From contig NZ_CP036433.1 in the NCBI RefSeq assembly GCF_007751035.1, positions 5,189,001-5,253,000 of the forward strand: DNA of 64,000 bases, given 5' to 3'. Position 1 is the stretch's first letter; every line of letters starts with the position of its first letter. A program made the translations under genes and the position numbers. This stretch comes from Lignipirellula cremea (lineage in GTDB: Bacteria > Planctomycetota > Planctomycetia > Pirellulales > Pirellulaceae). Below are positions 6,382 to 61,654 of this stretch, one piece after another. The notes beneath the pieces are model-generated. The model made no database searches and was not told the origin of the DNA. It saw nothing but the letters and a program-made list of their open reading frames with translations.

Positions 6382-6505
6382 TGCTGCGTCAAGCTTCAAT
6401 CTTAGAGTGAGCGATTTGGGCCGTGCTGCTGTGCTGCCAAAAAAACCGGGGGCTAGCGCCCGGCGGCTGATTTAGAGAAACCTGATATTATGGTTTGACG
6501 CACCA
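6382..6505 (+). mobile_element. MITE-A copy 1
   Basis: A 124-bp non-autonomous element with imperfect terminal repeats (TGCTGCGTCAAG at the left, TTTGACGCACCA at the right). It is flanked by CTAA (6378-6381, containing the proS stop) and CGAA (6506-6509), which fit a 4-bp target duplication with one later change. The right half matches the end of the insertion sequence at 33404-35042. Read on the minus strand, the middle forms a CCGGG/CCCGG hairpin followed by seven T. Confidence 0.8.
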
Positions 6506-10054: not shown

Positions 10055-10169
10055 TGGTGCGTCAAACTTCGATCTTAGAGTGAGCGATTTCGGCCGTGCT
10101 GCCAAAAAAACCGGGGCTAGCGCCCGGCGGCTGATTTAGAGAAACCTGATTTTATGGTTTGACGCACCA
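10055..10169 (+). mobile_element. MITE-A copy 2, flush against the hom stop codon
   Basis: A 115-bp copy with perfect outer repeats TGGTGCGTCAAAC/GTTTGACGCACCA and a perfect CTAG duplication (10051-10054 and 10170-10173). The right CTAG, read on the minus strand, supplies the TAG stop codon of hom. It is about 9 bp shorter than the other copies, having lost one GCTGCTGT-type repeat unit. Confidence 0.85.
10090..10130 (-). terminator. Rho-independent-like terminator inside MITE-A, downstream of hom
   Basis: On the minus strand the element reads CCGGG, a 7-nt loop CGCTAGC, CCCGG, then TTTTTTT. It lies about 45-75 bp beyond the hom stop codon in the right orientation to end the hom transcript. 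A mobile repeat therefore appears to supply this gene's terminator. Confidence 0.6.
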
Positions 10170-33403: not shown

Positions 33404-33468
33404 TGGTGCCTCAAACCATAATATCAGGTCTCTCTAAATCAGCCGCCGGGCGCTAGCCCAATGGCACT
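33404..33468 (+). repeat. Left inverted end of the IS
   Basis: Pairs with the right end at 34978-35042 with about four mismatches over 65 bp. Its outer 60 bp are shared with MITE-A. Confidence 0.85.
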
Positions 33469-33500
33469 GTTTTTACCAAATCCGTTGCCTGGGGTGGTTT

Positions 33501-33545
33501 TTGGCATGAATTTTGCGCCGCATGGTTTGGCATGAAATTTGCGCC
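33501..33545 (+). repeat. Two 19-bp direct repeats upstream of the transposase gene
   Basis: TTGGCATGAATTTTGCGCC (33501-33519) and the same with one change (33527-33545) are spaced 26 bp start to start. They lie between the IS end and the transposase start. They are candidate transposase-binding or promoter-control sites. Confidence 0.5.
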
Positions 33546-33583
33546 CCTTCCTGACCTCTTACTCATTGATAAGGAGTCTTGCG

Positions 33584-34978
33584 ATGGCGGCCAAACAGAA
33601 ACGTAAGCAGAAAGCACAGAAATCTGAGCAGGCGCGGGCGGCGGAGTTTGACGCCGTGTTTGCCCAGTTGGAAGAGATCGTGGATCTCCGCCAGGCCGAT
33701 GAGTTGCAGCCCTCCCACGCCCAAACGATTTACACGTCTGGCGTCGTCCTGTGGCTGTTGGTCTGGCAGCGATTACGCGGCGGTTGCTCGATGGCCGAGG
33801 CGGTCAAGGCCTTGATCGAGCAGTGCCCGGACATCGTGCCCGACAATAAACGCATCGAAGAAGCGACCCTCTCTTCCAGCACCGCGGCGTACTCCCGGGG
33901 CCGGAGCCGTTTGTCGCTGGAGACCGTCATGTGGCTCTGCAACGCCGTCTGGCGGTCGCTGGTCGACAACGCTCCGCCCACCTTCGGCGGGCGACGCGTG
34001 TTCGCGCTGGACGGCACGACGATCTCGCTGGGACCGGAATGGGAACTGTACGACGTCTTCCCGCCCGCTTCCAATCAGTACGGAGAGTCGGCCTGGCCGA
34101 TGGCCTATCTGGTCGTGGCTCATGAGGTCGAAAGTGGAGCGGCGTTGCCCCCGGAAATCGGTGCGATGTACGGCGACCAGGCGGTCTCGGAAACCAGCCT
34201 GATCCACGATCATTTACAACGCATCCCGGCCGATTCGGTGATTCTGGTCGACACAGCTTACGGCATTACGCGTGTCGCCTACGAGTTCCACACGGCCAAT
34301 CAACGCTTCGTGGTGCGGATGAAGAAGGACCGCTTTCGCCGGCTGCAAAAGGACGCCGAGTTGATCGAACAAGGCGAGGACTGGAAAACGTATCGAGGAC
34401 AATGGACGCCCAGTCGCCGCGAGCTGCGCGACAATCCTCAATTGCCGGAGGACTTCTCGCTGCCGATTCGGCTGCACGTGTTCGAAAGCGTCCACGGCGA
34501 AACAATCTATCTGGCGACCGACCTGACCGACGAATTGGACGTCATCGCCGATTTGTATAGTCAGCAGTGGCGTGTGGAAACAGATCTCTCACAGATCAAG
34601 GTGACGCTCGACATCGAGAACATCCTCGCCAAGAGTCCTGAGATGTTCCGCAAAGAACTGATGGCGTCGATCGTGGCCTATAACCTGACGATCCAGTTCC
34701 GCAAACAGGCGGCGGAACAGGCCAACGTACCGCCGCGGCGGCTCAGCTTCACCGGCGTGTGGGACGTGTTCCGCATCTTCCTGCTCCAAAAAACATTCCC
34801 CGACGCCGGCGCCTGGCGCACGGCTTACGCACGAGCGCTCAAGTACGCAGCGCGAGAGAAATTGCCGAACCGCCCCGGCCGGAGCTACTCCCGCGAAAGC
34901 TACAAACGCCGCTCCAAATCCTCGCATTTTAAAAAAAGATCTCCACCCTGGAACCAACCCGAAAACGAGCCAAAGTGA
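33584..34978 (+). CDS. IS4-superfamily DDE transposase
   Basis: A 464-residue transposase. The basic N-terminus (MAAKQKRKQKAQKSEQ) and a helical region to about residue 130 probably bind DNA. DDE residues are placed as D in RVFALDGTTISLG (about 142), D in VILVDTAYGI (about 222) and E in QQWRVETDLSQIK (about 332). The last is close to the IS4 YREK signature with Q in place of R. The ATG at 33584 follows AAGGAG at a good distance; an upstream in-frame start at 33539 is less likely. The frame is intact and both ends are present, so the element may be active. Confidence 0.92.
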   Translation: MAAKQKRKQKAQKSEQARAAEFDAVFAQLEEIVDLRQADELQPSHAQTIYTSGVVLWLLVWQRLRGGCSMAEAVKALIEQCPDIVPDNKRIEEATLSSSTAAYSRGRSRLSLETVMWLCNAVWRSLVDNAPPTFGGRRVFALDGTTISLGPEWELYDVFPPASNQYGESAWPMAYLVVAHEVESGAALPPEIGAMYGDQAVSETSLIHDHLQRIPADSVILVDTAYGITRVAYEFHTANQRFVVRMKKDRFRRLQKDAELIEQGEDWKTYRGQWTPSRRELRDNPQLPEDFSLPIRLHVFESVHGETIYLATDLTDELDVIADLYSQQWRVETDLSQIKVTLDIENILAKSPEMFRKELMASIVAYNLTIQFRKQAAEQANVPPRRLSFTGVWDVFRIFLLQKTFPDAGAWRTAYARALKYAAREKLPNRPGRSYSRESYKRRSKSSHFKKRSPPWNQPENEPK

Positions 34979-35042
34979 GTGCCATTGGGCTAGCGCCCGG
35001 CGGCTGATTGAGAGAAACCTGATTTTATGGTTTGACGCACCA
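34978..35042 (-). repeat. Right inverted end of the IS
   Basis: Complement of the left end at 33404-33468. It starts at the last base of the transposase stop codon. Confidence 0.85.
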
Positions 35043-56957: not shown

Positions 56958-57875
56958 TTACTCCGTGAAACGATGTTCAAACCCACGCGGCTCCAGGGCT
57001 TCCCGGCCATGCGGCGTACGTCGCCACAAACCGGGTCGGGCTATCATAACGCCGATCCGCGTGACGGGAACGCCCAAGGGCTGGTCGCGCAACAACTGCT
57101 CAGCCGCCCGCGGTGGGGCGGTGAAGATCAACTCAAAATCCTCGCCGTCGGCGAGCGCGTGGTCAAGTGCGGTCGACGGACCTACGCGGGCCGCCAGTTC
57201 CCGCGCTGCGGCCGAGATGGGGATCGCTTCCAGGTCTAGCTCCACCCCCAGCGAACTGGCCCGCGTGAGGCGGTCGAGGTCGATCAGCAGGCCATCGCTG
57301 ATGTCGGCCGCCGCGGATGCCTGGTAATCGCGGCGCAGCGTGATCGCTTCCTCTACGCGCGGCATAAAGTCAAAGTGCTTGCCCAGAATGCTGCCGCCTA
57401 GATCGCCTGTGACCAGGACATGATCGCCCTGCTGGGCCCCGCTGCGGCGGAGCAAGCCGCACGGCGTCGGTTCCCCCAGCACGGTGACAGAGATCGCCAG
57501 TTTGCCGTTCCAGCTGTTCGTATCGCCGCCAGCGATAGAAGTGGAATACTGCCGCGCCAACGGCGCCATGCCGGCATACAGCTGTTTGGCCAGGACGCCG
57601 CCGCCTTCACGCGGCAACAACAGGGAAACGAGCGCCGCCACGGGCCGCGCCGCCATGGCCGCCATGTCGCTCAGGTTGACGGCCAGCGCTTTCCGCCCGA
57701 TCCGCTGGGGGTCGCACTCGGCCAGAATGAAGTCAACCTCGTCGGTAATCATATCGACGGCGGCGACACAGTCTCCGCCCAGGCGGATCACCGCGGCGTC
57801 GTCGCCAATCCCGACCGGCACGCGATCGTCCGCCGGCTCGTTCCTTTGCAGGTACTCAATGAACGACCGCTCCAT
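56958..57875 (-). CDS. thiL: Thiamine-monophosphate kinase
   Basis: Phosphorylates thiamine monophosphate to the active diphosphate. The 305-residue protein has the PurM-like fold signatures VGIGDDAAVIRLGGDCVAAV (ATP/Mg site), AVNLSDMAAMAARPVAALVS, ISVTVLGEPTPCGLLRRSGA, VTGDLGGSILG and AAADISDGLLIDLDRL. The length is normal. It is cotranscribed with tsaE. No thiamine riboswitch was recognised in the 357 bp upstream. Confidence 0.95.
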   Translation of the reverse strand: MERSFIEYLQRNEPADDRVPVGIGDDAAVIRLGGDCVAAVDMITDEVDFILAECDPQRIGRKALAVNLSDMAAMAARPVAALVSLLLPREGGGVLAKQLYAGMAPLARQYSTSIAGGDTNSWNGKLAISVTVLGEPTPCGLLRRSGAQQGDHVLVTGDLGGSILGKHFDFMPRVEEAITLRRDYQASAAADISDGLLIDLDRLTRASSLGVELDLEAIPISAAARELAARVGPSTALDHALADGEDFELIFTAPPRAAEQLLRDQPLGVPVTRIGVMIARPGLWRRTPHGREALEPRGFEHRFTE

Positions 57876-58232
57876 GGGACAGGATTCGCCGCAAGGCGAT
57901 TCTCTTCTGGTTCGCTGATTTCTTTCCGGCCGGCAGGCCGACCCAAAGCGGAAGCGCCGACGTACTGCTTGTGCAAGGTCAACCGCCGCCCGACTGCCTG
58001 TGGTTATCGCAAAAAAGCGAGCCAGGAGCCAGCGGTCGGAACTGGCCTTCCGCCTTTTCGACCGGGGCGCCTATAATCCGCGGCAATCCTTCCCCTCTTC
58101 ACCGATGGCGACGGATAAAGAGCGGGCCGGGTATGCCGCTTGTCGATAATAGCATTGCCAGCAAGCCCTGGGCTGAATGACGGTCCGACCGGGATCTGGC
58201 GAGGAACTGAATATTTCTGCGAAGGAACGACA
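57876..58232. other. Divergent intergenic region, thiL/lipoprotein
   Basis: 357 bp. It contains a candidate plus-strand promoter (58048-58077). No THI-box-like sequence was seen on the thiL side. Confidence 0.45.
58048..58077 (+). promoter_or_regulatory. Candidate promoter for the small lipoprotein gene
   Basis: TTCCGC (58048-58053), an 18-bp spacer and a perfect TATAAT (58072-58077), 155 bp upstream of the start. The -35 match is weak. Confidence 0.3.
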
Positions 58233-58481
58233 ATGCGGCTCCTGATGATCGCCTTTACCATCCTGGCAGTTTCCGCCTCCGCCGGTTGCGGCATGACCCG
58301 CAATATCTTTTACCCCGGCAGCATTGAACAGCAGCAACGCTTCGCCACGCTGCATGACCCGTACCCGGACAATGTGGCCGGTCCCGAGGTCGTCGGCGGA
58401 CGGCCGCTTTCGTTCGCCAATCCCCAGCCGGAACCGGTCCGCAGCGACTACGCCCGCAACTATTTCATGTTCGGCCGCTAG
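58233..58481 (+). CDS. Small lipoprotein ending in a MITE target site
   Basis: An 82-residue protein with a lipoprotein signal (MRLLMIAFTILAVSASAGCG; lipobox SAGC). The mature part (NIFYPGSIEQQQRFATLHDP) ends in RSDYARNYFMFGR and resembles short uncharacterised planctomycete lipoproteins with a YPG/DPYPDN pattern. AAGGA precedes the ATG at 58233; the longer frame from 58140 is not supported. The stop TAG is part of the CTAG (58478-58481) that flanks the first MITE-A of the array, so the element sits exactly at the end of the gene. Confidence 0.75.
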   Translation: MRLLMIAFTILAVSASAGCGMTRNIFYPGSIEQQQRFATLHDPYPDNVAGPEVVGGRPLSFANPQPEPVRSDYARNYFMFGR

Positions 58482-58605
58482 TGGTGCGTCAATCTTCAAT
58501 CTTAGAGTGAGTGATTTCGGCCGTGCTGCTGTGCTGCCAAAAAAACCGGGGGTTAGCGCCCGGCGGCTGATTGAGAGAAACCTGATTTTATGGTTTGACG
58601 CACCA
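58482..58605 (+). mobile_element. MITE-A, array copy A1
   Basis: Ends TGGTGCGTCAA...TTGACGCACCA. Flanks CTAG (with the lipoprotein stop) and CGAG. Array copies A2-A4 lie at 58839-58962, 59196-59319 and 59553-59677. Confidence 0.85.
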
Positions 58606-58609
58606 CGAG

Positions 58610-58734
58610 TGCTGCGTCAAGGCAAAGAGTTCGGGTTCTTCCCATTAGCCGTTTTGGCGATAGCCACGGTTAACTAAAAGGAACAGCGGCTCGCGCGAAA
58701 ATGGCCAAACCTGAAATGGAAACTTGACGCACCA
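58610..58734 (+). mobile_element. MITE-B, array copy B1
   Basis: A 125-bp element whose ends (TGCTGCGTCAAGG and CTTGACGCACCA) match MITE-A but whose interior is unrelated. Flanks CGAG and CTAG. Copies B2 and B3 lie at 58967-59091 and 59324-59448. None was seen outside the array. Confidence 0.7.
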
Positions 58735-58738
58735 CTAG

Positions 58739-58834
58739 TGCAAGTTCTTCGGCAGAGGACTGGGTTGCAAGTTGGTGCGGGAGCATGAAGGCAAAGGGAC
58801 TTGTGGCCCAGTCCGCCACCGTGTTCCCTGAAGG
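58739..58834 (+). repeat. Repeat C, array copy C1
   Basis: A 96-bp unit with the inverted pair GGACTGGG/CCCAGTCC. It holds a 20-bp block found inverted in repeat D (9955-9974) and partly at 6547. Further copies at 59096-59191 and 59453-59548. Confidence 0.65.
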
Positions 58835-59717
58835 CTAGTGGTGCGTCAATCTTCAATCTTCGAGTGAGCGATTTCGGCCGTGCTGCTGTGCTGCCAAGAA
58901 AACCGTGGGCTAGCGCCCGGCGGCTGATTGAGAGAAACCTGTTATTATGGTTTGACGCACCACGAGTGCTGCGTCAAGGCAAAGAGTTCGGGTTCTTCCA
59001 ATTAGCCGTTTTGGCGATAGCCACGGTTAACTAAAAGGAACAGCGGCTCGCGCGAAAATGACCAAACCTGAAATGGAAACTTGACGCACCACTAGTGCAA
59101 GTTCTTCGGCAGAGGACTGGGTTGCAAGTTGGTGCGGGAGCATGAAGGCAAAGGGACTTGTGGCCCAGTCCACCACCGTGTTCCCTGAAGGCTAGTGCTG
59201 CGTCAAACTTCAATCTTAGAGTGAGTGATTTCGGCCGTGCTGCTGTGCTGCCAAAAAAACCGGGGGCTAGAGCCCGGCGGCTGATTGAGAGAAACCTGAT
59301 TTTATGGTTTGACGCACCACGAGTACTGCGTCAAGGCAAAGAGTTCGGGTTCTTCCAATTAGCCGTTTTGGCGATAGCCACGGTTAACTAAAAGGAACAG
59401 CGGCTCGCGCGAAAATGGCCAAACCTGAAATGGAAACTTGACGCACCACTAGTGCAAGTTCTTCGGCAGAGGACTGGGTTGCAAGTTGGTGCGGGAGCAT
59501 GAAGGCAAAGGAACTTGTGGCCCAGTCCACCACCGTGTTCCCTGAAGGCTAGTGGTGCGTCAATCTTCAATCTTAGAGTGAGCGATTTCGGCCGTGCTGC
59601 TGTGCTGCCAAAAAAACCGGGGGCTAGCGACCCGGCGGCTGATTGAGAGAAACCTGATTTTATGGTTTGAGGCACCACGAGTGTCAGAGTCGACGGCGAC
59701 AGCTTAGAAGGAAGCCG

Positions 59718-60608
59718 TTAGCGGAGATAGACGCCAGGGTTGTACGGGTAGTAGCTCCGGCGGCGACCGCCGAAACGCCATTCGATGCCGGCGGTTAGCG
59801 AGATATTCTGCATCATGCTGACGTTCGGTCCGCCAAACGCAATGTTGTCGTGCAGGTCGAAGCGAACGGCCGCCCAGGGTTTCCAGAAGTACTTGATACC
59901 GACGCCAAGCGGTAACTGGAACGTGCTTTCGCTGTAGTGCCGGCCCTGCTCATCGTAAAAGTTGAACTGGGCCAGTCCTGCGCCCAGAGAAAAGTAGGGC
60001 CGCCAGCGATCGTCGCCCAGTGGGTAGTAGACCACGTGGAAGTCGAAGAACTGCACTTCATTCCGCCGCGGCGCTGGTCCATTGGGATAACCAATGTCGG
60101 TATCGGCGATCGCGTAGCGGGCCTCGACGCCCCAACTGTCGGCCATGTCGGCGCCAATTCTTATGCCGCCGAGAAATCCAGCCCCGCCGCGGACCTGGCT
60201 GCCGAGCGGATTGTCGGTGAACAGGCCGCCCACAATCATGTCGGCATGATAAGGCCGATTCAGCCAGCTGGAACCGACCAGCGGCTCCTGGGGAGCCCAG
60301 AGACCCGTACCGCTCCAGGGCGCCAGGCTGTGCAAACGGTGGCCGAACCAGCCCTGGGAGATAAAGTCGTCGCCTCTGCCGCCGCGATAGCGCCGGCCAG
60401 CGCCAGGGCTCCAGCCGTCATCGCAGCTCTCGCCAAAACTTTCAGTCGGGGGCTGTTCATCCGCGAAGTATTCGTCGGGCCCCAGCAGGTAGTCGTCATC
60501 AAAGGCAGGCTGACGAAGACCGGGCGATTCCCCTTGCGCAGCACGTTCCCCCACGCTGAAAATCAGCGGCATAAAAAGCAGCAGGAGCCAGCAGTGCTTG
60601 CAACGCAT
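59718..60608 (-). CDS. Outer-membrane beta-barrel protein
   Basis: A 296-residue exported protein with a signal peptide (HCWLLLLFMPLIFSVGERAA). An acidic, glycine-rich stretch (SCDDGWSPGAGRRYRGGRGD) precedes a C-terminal barrel of about 180 residues with alternating strands (MIVGGLFTDNPLGSQVRGG, AGFLGGIRIGADMADSWGVE, YFSLGAGLAQFNFYDEQGRH). The barrel includes a late SLTAGIEWRFGGRRRSYYPY strand typical of OmpA/OmpW-like porins. Probably an outer-membrane structural or pore protein; the ligand is unknown. AAGG stands eight bases before the ATG. Confidence 0.8.
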   Translation of the reverse strand: MRCKHCWLLLLFMPLIFSVGERAAQGESPGLRQPAFDDDYLLGPDEYFADEQPPTESFGESCDDGWSPGAGRRYRGGRGDDFISQGWFGHRLHSLAPWSGTGLWAPQEPLVGSSWLNRPYHADMIVGGLFTDNPLGSQVRGGAGFLGGIRIGADMADSWGVEARYAIADTDIGYPNGPAPRRNEVQFFDFHVVYYPLGDDRWRPYFSLGAGLAQFNFYDEQGRHYSESTFQLPLGVGIKYFWKPWAAVRFDLHDNIAFGGPNVSMMQNISLTAGIEWRFGGRRRSYYPYNPGVYLR

Positions 60609-60746
60609 GGCGCAGCCTTGAAGGACGCAAAACGGCGGCCAGATTCGCCGAGGAAAAGCGGGCCGAGTATGGCGACGCGTCCCGAATCCGTCAACGTCGA
60701 TTTGTCGGCGTTTTGCCCCTGCTGTTGCGTCCTTCCCGGCGATCGG

Positions 60747-61496
60747 TTATCCGGCTGAAGTCGGGCAGACTTCGGCGTTCCACACCACCACGTCCAGACG
60801 CTTTGCAAAATGCAGAAGGGGCGGGCTGTCAGGCAGGTCGATGTTCCACGGCGAAAGCATGGTGTTGTTGGTAATCGTGGCTGCGGCAGGCTGCAGGGGC
60901 CAGGGGACGTGCTGCACTTCGTTCCGCAAAATCCGTCCGTCGGGCGATTGGGCGTACAGGCAGTAGCGTTCCGTCAGCCAGCTTTCCAGCGTGCCCGGCT
61001 GCGACGCATACACGTCGCCGGTGGGACGCCAGGTCGCTTCAAACGCTGCGTCTCCCTGCGTGCGTCGAGAGTAATAGTGGTAAGTATCGCCTTCCTGTTT
61101 CAGGCTCATCTGAGCTCGATAGTAGGGCAGGTAAAAGAACCGGCTTGCCGCCCAGATGGCGAGCGGGTTGGTCGCGTCGAGGCTCAAAAACCAGACACCC
61201 GGCTTGCCCTCGGTTTCAACGTACGTCCGCACATTGATCTCGGGAAAGGCAGAAATCCAGGGCATGTCGGGCAAGGGTCGCCGCATGACGCCCGCCATGC
61301 GGAAGGGAACAATGCCGATCCAGGCCGAACCGTCGAATTCTTGCAGTTCGACCTCCCGCGGCACACAAGAACGAAGAACGTCTGCCGGAACGGGCCAGTG
61401 CATGAACAGCAAGTCGCGCCACGACTGACGCCAGGTCCACGGGCTGGCCGGGGCTTTCCAGGGGCGATGATCTGTCTGCGAGAAAGCCGAATGCAT
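60747..61496 (-). CDS. DUF2071 (YqjF-like) family protein
   Basis: A 249-residue soluble protein of DUF2071. Signatures are WRDLLFMHWPVPADVLRSCV, EVELQEFDGSAWIGIVPFRM, AFPEINVRTYVETEGKPGVW and FLSLDATNPLAIWAASRFFY. The fold is related to acetoacetate-decarboxylase-like barrels, but the family has no established activity known to me. It is encoded 138 bp upstream of the beta-barrel gene on the same strand. A reversed MITE-A copy begins 35 bp upstream of its start and may influence its expression. Confidence 0.88.
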   Translation of the reverse strand: MHSAFSQTDHRPWKAPASPWTWRQSWRDLLFMHWPVPADVLRSCVPREVELQEFDGSAWIGIVPFRMAGVMRRPLPDMPWISAFPEINVRTYVETEGKPGVWFLSLDATNPLAIWAASRFFYLPYYRAQMSLKQEGDTYHYYSRRTQGDAAFEATWRPTGDVYASQPGTLESWLTERYCLYAQSPDGRILRNEVQHVPWPLQPAAATITNNTMLSPWNIDLPDSPPLLHFAKRLDVVVWNAEVCPTSAG

Positions 61497-61531: not shown

Positions 61532-61654
61532 TGGCGCGTCAAACCATAAAATCAGGTTTCTCTAAATCAGCCATTGGGCGCTAGCCCCCGGTTTTTTGGC
61601 AGCACAGCAGCACGGCCGAAATCGCTCACTCTAAGATTGAAGTTTGACGCACCA
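61532..61654 (-). mobile_element. MITE-A copy in reverse orientation
   Basis: A 123-bp copy, flanked by CTAG (61528-61531) and CTGG (61655-61658). Next to the central hairpin it has CCATTGGG in place of the usual CCGCCGGG; CCATTGGG otherwise occurs at the inner border of the IS ends. The hairpin is weakened by this change. Confidence 0.8.

Follow-up and report, generated by a model that had tools for sequence, protein, structure and literature searches.

A small tandem array in Lignipirellula cremea, probably seeded by IS630-type MITEs around a local spacer

We found that a small tandem array in the chromosome of Lignipirellula cremea is built from two different MITEs, A and B, and a 96-bp spacer, C. 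We consider it probable that IS630-type MITEs seeded this array, a fused AB pair and a further A having come to lie around C, and that unequal exchange then multiplied the segment. The array is located in the window (the whole stretch of 64 kb that was analysed, to which all positions below refer) between an ORF at 58140-58481 on the forward strand and a convergent ORF at 59718-60608 on the reverse strand. Tandem Repeats Finder reported a repeat at 58477-59683 with a period of 357, 3.4 copies and 96% matches, and re-reading of the joints resolved 58478-59681 into three units of CTAG-A-CGAG-B-CTAG-C followed by CTAG-A-CGAG. All elements lie on the forward strand: MITE A at 58482-58605 (copy 1, 124 bp), 58839-58962 (copy 2), 59196-59319 (copy 3) and 59553-59677 (the terminal copy 4, 125 bp); MITE B at 58610-58734 (copy 1, 125 bp), 58967-59091 (copy 2) and 59324-59448 (copy 3); and spacer C at 58739-58834 (copy 1, 96 bp, carrying one arm of a REPIN-like palindrome), 59096-59191 (copy 2) and 59453-59548 (copy 3). 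CTAG is found at 58478, 58735, 58835, 59092, 59192, 59449 and 59549, and CGAG at 58606, 58963, 59320 and 59678. The first CTAG (58478-58481) is the left target duplication, and its TAG (58479-58481) is the stop codon of the left-hand ORF; the first A/B joint is the CGAG at 58606-58609, and the CGAG following the terminal A (59678-59681) is the joint of A-CGAG-B with B absent. The strict A-B-C order, the 357-bp period and the presence of CTAG or CGAG at every joint, as described in the earlier note, were thus confirmed, the joints numbering 11. An assembly artefact is hardly credible as the source of the array, given that its full units differ from one another at 10, 8 and 12 of 357 positions, that all three carry unit-specific changes and that a single contig of 9,565,229 bases makes up the chromosome. 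When the joint pattern was sought in 241 genomes of the family, it was present in one, L. cremea itself, and an Rfam scan of positions 57000-61000 gave no match at E values up to 1.

MITE A (124 bp) and MITE B (125 bp) have inverted ends of 11 bp, which in B contain one mismatch. These ends are all that the two have in common, as had been proposed, the longest match between them without the 11-bp ends being 8 bp (blastn, E 0.17). Both are multicopy in their own genome, with at least 40 matches each (all 40 of the 40 candidates scored; the first look gave 128 candidates for A and 83 for B), and the end pattern TAGTGSTGCGTCAA has 158 occurrences in the genome, 100 of them listed, against 0 for a reversed control pattern. 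A and B are short and non-coding, have terminal inverted repeats and occur in many dispersed copies, and these are the features of MITEs. Besides the array, the window holds three solo copies of MITE A, at 6382-6505, 10055-10169 and 61532-61654, the first of which has unequal flanks, CTAA and CGAA.

Copies were aligned from 87 small loci and the window rather than from the whole genome, yielding 57 A and 54 B copies with at least 90% element coverage. Removing by pattern those with an adjoining element end left 56 solo copies from the 104 outside the array. Their flanks were identical 4-mers in 34 cases (CTAG 28, CTAC 3, GTAG 2 and CTAA 1) and unequal in 22. Since the flanks other than CTAG agree over four bases, the target duplication of A and B, as judged from these flanks, appears to measure 4 bp and not 2 bp. 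A and B each form a dispersed MITE family; the two share their 11-bp ends and lie at CTAG or at a site close to it in sequence. Thirteen of the 56 solo copies had CTAG on one side and an altered 4-mer on the other (CTGG on the left in 7, CCAG on the right in 6), the change lying two positions out from the element, while the mirror change was seen once (p 0.0018); this bias looks tied to transposition. CTAG itself is strongly depleted: for 224 occurrences predicted by base composition, the window has 36, of which 20 are located within or next to elements. Given this rarity, the CTAGs left at the ends of inserted elements make up a sizeable share of the targets.

The presumed mobiliser of A and B is of the IS630 family (Tc1/mariner superfamily), and judging from their ends A and B themselves look IS630-type. 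The core CTAGTGGTGCGTCA is common to the ends of A and B, to an IS630 remnant of the same genome (L209) and to IS630 copies of Planctomycetes bacterium TBK1r. The remnant is the one match to a truncated IS630-like transposase gene in the genome and is bordered by CTAGTGGTGCGTCA; it scored 82.6 bits against NCBIfam NF033545, under the whole-protein cut-off of 100, and 57.6 bits against Pfam DDE_3, over the cut-off. Its best relatives, among the best 80 of 211 loci, are eight full-length copies in TBK1r that are 82% identical and measure about 1.23 kb, carrying CTAGTGGTGCGTCA on the left and TGACGCACCACTAG on the right. In the sole copy examined (L216), the gene is split in two overlapping ORFs, the second of which scored 111.7 bits against the IS630 profile, over the cut-off, and the first 56.7 bits, under it. 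Outside the core, similarity to the end of the own IS630 was clear solely for the left end of A (shuffle fraction 0.0075), the fractions being 0.91 for the right end of A and 0.78 and 0.19 for the ends of B, so that the IS630 link rests mainly on the core. In addition, A and B show matched 4-mers instead of the 2-bp TA duplication expected of ISY100-like IS630 elements, and with 4-bp matched flanks they are called IS630-type by their ends and not as canonical members.

Another candidate, an IS4-family IS in the window (33457-34989; transposase 147.5 bits against NCBIfam IS4), was at first taken as the parent of A because of sequence overlap, and was rejected when the true IS4 ends were located within A. 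These ends, CCCAATGGCACT, were identified from relatives of the transposase in three genomes (G006, G042 and G094); they are of the CCCAATG type and are not those of A or B. At L012 and L013 the IS4 is inserted within the central palindrome of A, where a 6-bp duplication flanks it (CTAGCG, read as CGCTAG on the opposite strand), and the IS4-family IS is a passenger in some A copies. IS4 elements with CCCAATG-type ends and 6-bp duplications were seen at L012, L013 and L198-L207, in the own genome and in G006, G042 and G094; their targets in the own genome, G006 and G042 read as loops of GC-rich palindromes (in G042, CGGGGG-CTCACG-CCCCCG). The copy in the window is flanked by inverted copies of the right half of A and not by a direct duplication, and seems rearranged. 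At L190 (G000:C1:3870700-3874500) two IS4 copies stand in direct tandem inside one MITE A with a single CGCTAG between them. None of the 30 pattern matches in a wider contig collection, from which the own genome was possibly excluded, proved a relative of the IS4 transposase by tblastn.

The earlier note had also raised the possibility that some mechanism links elements end to end at YTAR, and contacts at YTAR-like sites do occur: outside the array, A and B abut at 26 places in our sample, in all four relative orientations. This tally was made by hand. It covers A copies split by IS4 (L013, L014, L015 and L022) and partial copies (L144 and L148); L109, whose neighbour is another element, lies outside it, and L208 was not used. 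A recount gave 25 contacts outside the array. It lacks L116 and L147, where A is offset by 12 bp and the joint is CTAG, which the hand tally keeps, and includes L143 (joint CTAA), which the hand tally omits because the end of B is lost. Every insertion makes a second CTAG, and CTAG is scarce, so that repeated use of the doubled site can explain the end-to-end contacts and no special joining machinery would be needed.

The sequence of the joint depends on orientation. CGAG was found in 11 of the 12 dispersed contacts in which A and B are both in forward orientation (A+B+), compared with one of the 14 other A/B contacts (Fisher p 2.7e-5), so that the A-CGAG-B pair occurs at 11 dispersed loci besides the array. 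The simplest reading of this joint would be that A-CGAG-B moves as a unit, as might also be said of L029, where CTAA stands at both outer ends and CGAG inside. AB may therefore move as one fused element, a reading that the trees and some of the outer flanks do not support. The outer flanks of the 11 dispersed pairs are identical in seven and unequal in four (L013, L026, L030 and L124). Neither the A nor the B copies from pairs make a clade, and A and B distances within pairs are uncorrelated (Mantel r -0.10, p 0.68, 13 pairs). Mean differences were 11.6 among A copies ending in CGAG versus 3.6 among B copies starting after CGAG, and A being so much more diverse than B at these joints is not expected from a single recent ancestor. 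Recombination could blur the common-ancestor signal of the pairs, 66 of 91 site pairs in A and 15 of 21 in B failing the four-gamete test, but it lends no support either, and the trees do not decide.

These same data bear on another reading, in which A-CGAG-B is not one element: B would have been inserted independently beside different A copies, CGAG being a by-product of the way in which B, or a B lineage with CGAG on its left, inserts, and the array would be a local duplication of one such pair. The A and B of pairs do resemble draws from the pool, with A far more diverse, four B copies have left CGAG without an A+ neighbour (L018, L019, L112 and L114), and the outer flanks differ in four of the 11 pairs. 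Against this, CGAG is concentrated in one orientation, and at L029 the joint is CGAG and not the CTAA of the outer ends; we regard independent insertion of B as somewhat unlikely. The fused pair, by comparison, would amount to a new transposable element. Two MITEs would have abutted at one CTAG, and a TA to GA change would have locked them together while leaving the outer ends usable, giving an element of ~253 bp that reached 11 or more other loci and, at the present one, seeded a bacterial satellite; we put this forward tentatively, as somewhat less likely than not. For Tc1/mariner elements, excision at the inner ends would be prevented once the flanking TA is lost. Another type of element, whose ends are similar and whose core resembles a REPIN, adjoins A or B at L026, L124 and L109; at L026 and L124 CGAG also links it to A, giving a three-element chain.

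The third component of the array is of a different kind. The earlier note had counted three different mobile repeats, and C does not bear this out: in a search of the own genome, whole C (96 bp) was found solely in the three array units, and this speaks against a third mobile element. Elsewhere in the genome it has three partial matches of 39-47 bp and 81-86% identity, which overlap a short palindrome, GGACTTGTGGCC-AGTCC. Allowing at most one mismatch, 40 matches were found in the genome; the arm GGACTTGTGGCCCAGTCC of C is part of this set, which also includes three inverted pairs at 40-bp spacing. C itself has one good arm and a degenerate second arm, and it folds with an unremarkable energy (z-score -0.72). 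C would thus be a piece of intergenic DNA of local origin that contains a REPIN-like repeat in decay. A search with the MITE pair gave matches in 3 of 39 other genomes, all of them fragments of 30-83 bp, and an empty site was not found among the genomes searched; hence we infer, rather than read from such a site, that C is ancestral host DNA. The right-hand gene of the array was matched in 18 of 40 genomes including the own one, and the best other gene, at 45% identity, is too distant for the intergenic DNA to be aligned. It is very improbable that A, B and C were each inserted separately by a transposase joining elements end to end. Direct abutment of A and B in all four orientations would suit such a transposase, but dispersed C was not found, and the identical order and boundaries three times over would be a repeated coincidence.

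Taken as a whole, the history of the array is one that we infer, and it would run as follows. A fused AB of ~253 bp would move by means of the left end of A and the right end of B, a T-to-G change having perhaps removed the TA common to both inner ends and so locked the pair. Either another A, or another fused AB that lost its B, would have come to lie 96 bp from the first fused AB, with the local sequence C between them. Unequal homologous exchange between direct A copies would then have raised A-B-C to three units, and gene conversion with dispersed copies would have brought pool alleles into the array. An A stands at either end of the array, which is what expansion of A-B-C-A by exchange between A copies would produce, and this upholds the earlier suggestion that elements inserted next to each other, at CTAG, before unequal exchange or slippage set in. 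The terminal A with CGAG and no B needs an extra step; either B disappeared from a second pair, or conversion altered the flank of an A that stood alone.

Comparison of the divergence between units, which the earlier note had proposed, pointed in the same direction. Among the three full units, A varied at 10 sites in 124 and B and C together at 5 in 221 (p 0.024). A would be expected to vary more between units than B and C under exchange combined with gene conversion from dispersed copies. The four A copies of the array vary at 12 columns; at five of these many dispersed copies (11-39 of 53) carry the minor allele, and at six 0 or 1 of 53 do. At column 31, A copies 1 to 4 have T, C, T and C in turn; C is the common base, and T occurs in one of the 53 dispersed copies, so that A copies 1 and 3 hold a nearly private allele in common. 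B has three variable sites in the array, one of which is a pool allele. This pattern of alleles suggests that the A and B variants fit exchange within the array together with gene conversion from dispersed copies. Alternatively, two GCTAG sequences, one at the left border and one ending C, might have given rise to the first duplication through replication slippage or non-homologous joining, with no second insertion of A. GCTAG is present at both borders, but such an event leaves unexplained why the terminal A stops at its own end with CGAG and requires a later deletion to the A/B border, and we judge it unlikely.

The ingredients of the array are ordinary, yet it is a clear bacterial example of the birth of a tandem repeat from adjacent transposon insertions, a route so far known mainly from eukaryotic satellites. 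Within one bacterial chromosome we see what look like consecutive stages of this route: neighbouring insertions, a fused pair of MITEs and, finally, a tandem array. If the fusion is true, one base change in a common target duplication turns two MITEs into one, and this is directly testable. In a literature search with partial coverage of bacterial MITEs, tandem arrays and IS/MITE families, a bacterial array of MITE pairs was not found.

The closest parallel, as summarised in a secondary source, is the double insertion of a transposon that gives rise to a satellite array in eukaryotes, elongated by unequal crossover or slippage (McGurk and Barbash 2018, cited in PMC12368964). The two cases are alike in adjacent head-to-tail insertion followed by unequal crossover or slippage, whereas ours is bacterial and consists of two different MITEs and a spacer in three units only. 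Bari1, a Tc1-like element of Drosophila, forms head-to-tail clusters of ~80 copies in which, according to passages of PMC8834629, the first two nucleotides are lost at each joint. It resembles our array in that Tc1-like units stand head to tail and each joint carries the same systematic change, but there about 80 copies of one element are involved and here MITE pairs with a spacer. ISY100 belongs to the transposase family of the presumed mobiliser and likewise has a TA-centred target; it duplicates 2 bp, TA, in the description excerpted from PMC2170065, in contrast to the non-CTAG flanks of A and B, which match over 4 bp. Among bacterial elements, the 100-nt MITEPsy1 of Pseudomonas syringae, with its 4-nt duplication of CTAG or YTAA (PMC3189936), is similar to A and B as a short bacterial MITE with a 4-nt CTAG-type duplication. 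In excerpts of the same paper MITEPsy1 occurs once in tandem insertion with an IS, and a MITE-like sequence mobilised as a composite element is cited. Unlike A and B, MITEPsy1 is probably derived from ISPsy2 of the IS5 family and has other ends, and those excerpts describe no tandem array. Set beside these systems, the process itself has already been described for eukaryotic satellites; what is new here is its occurrence in a bacterium, together with the CGAG pair and a target duplication of apparently 4 bp instead of 2 bp.
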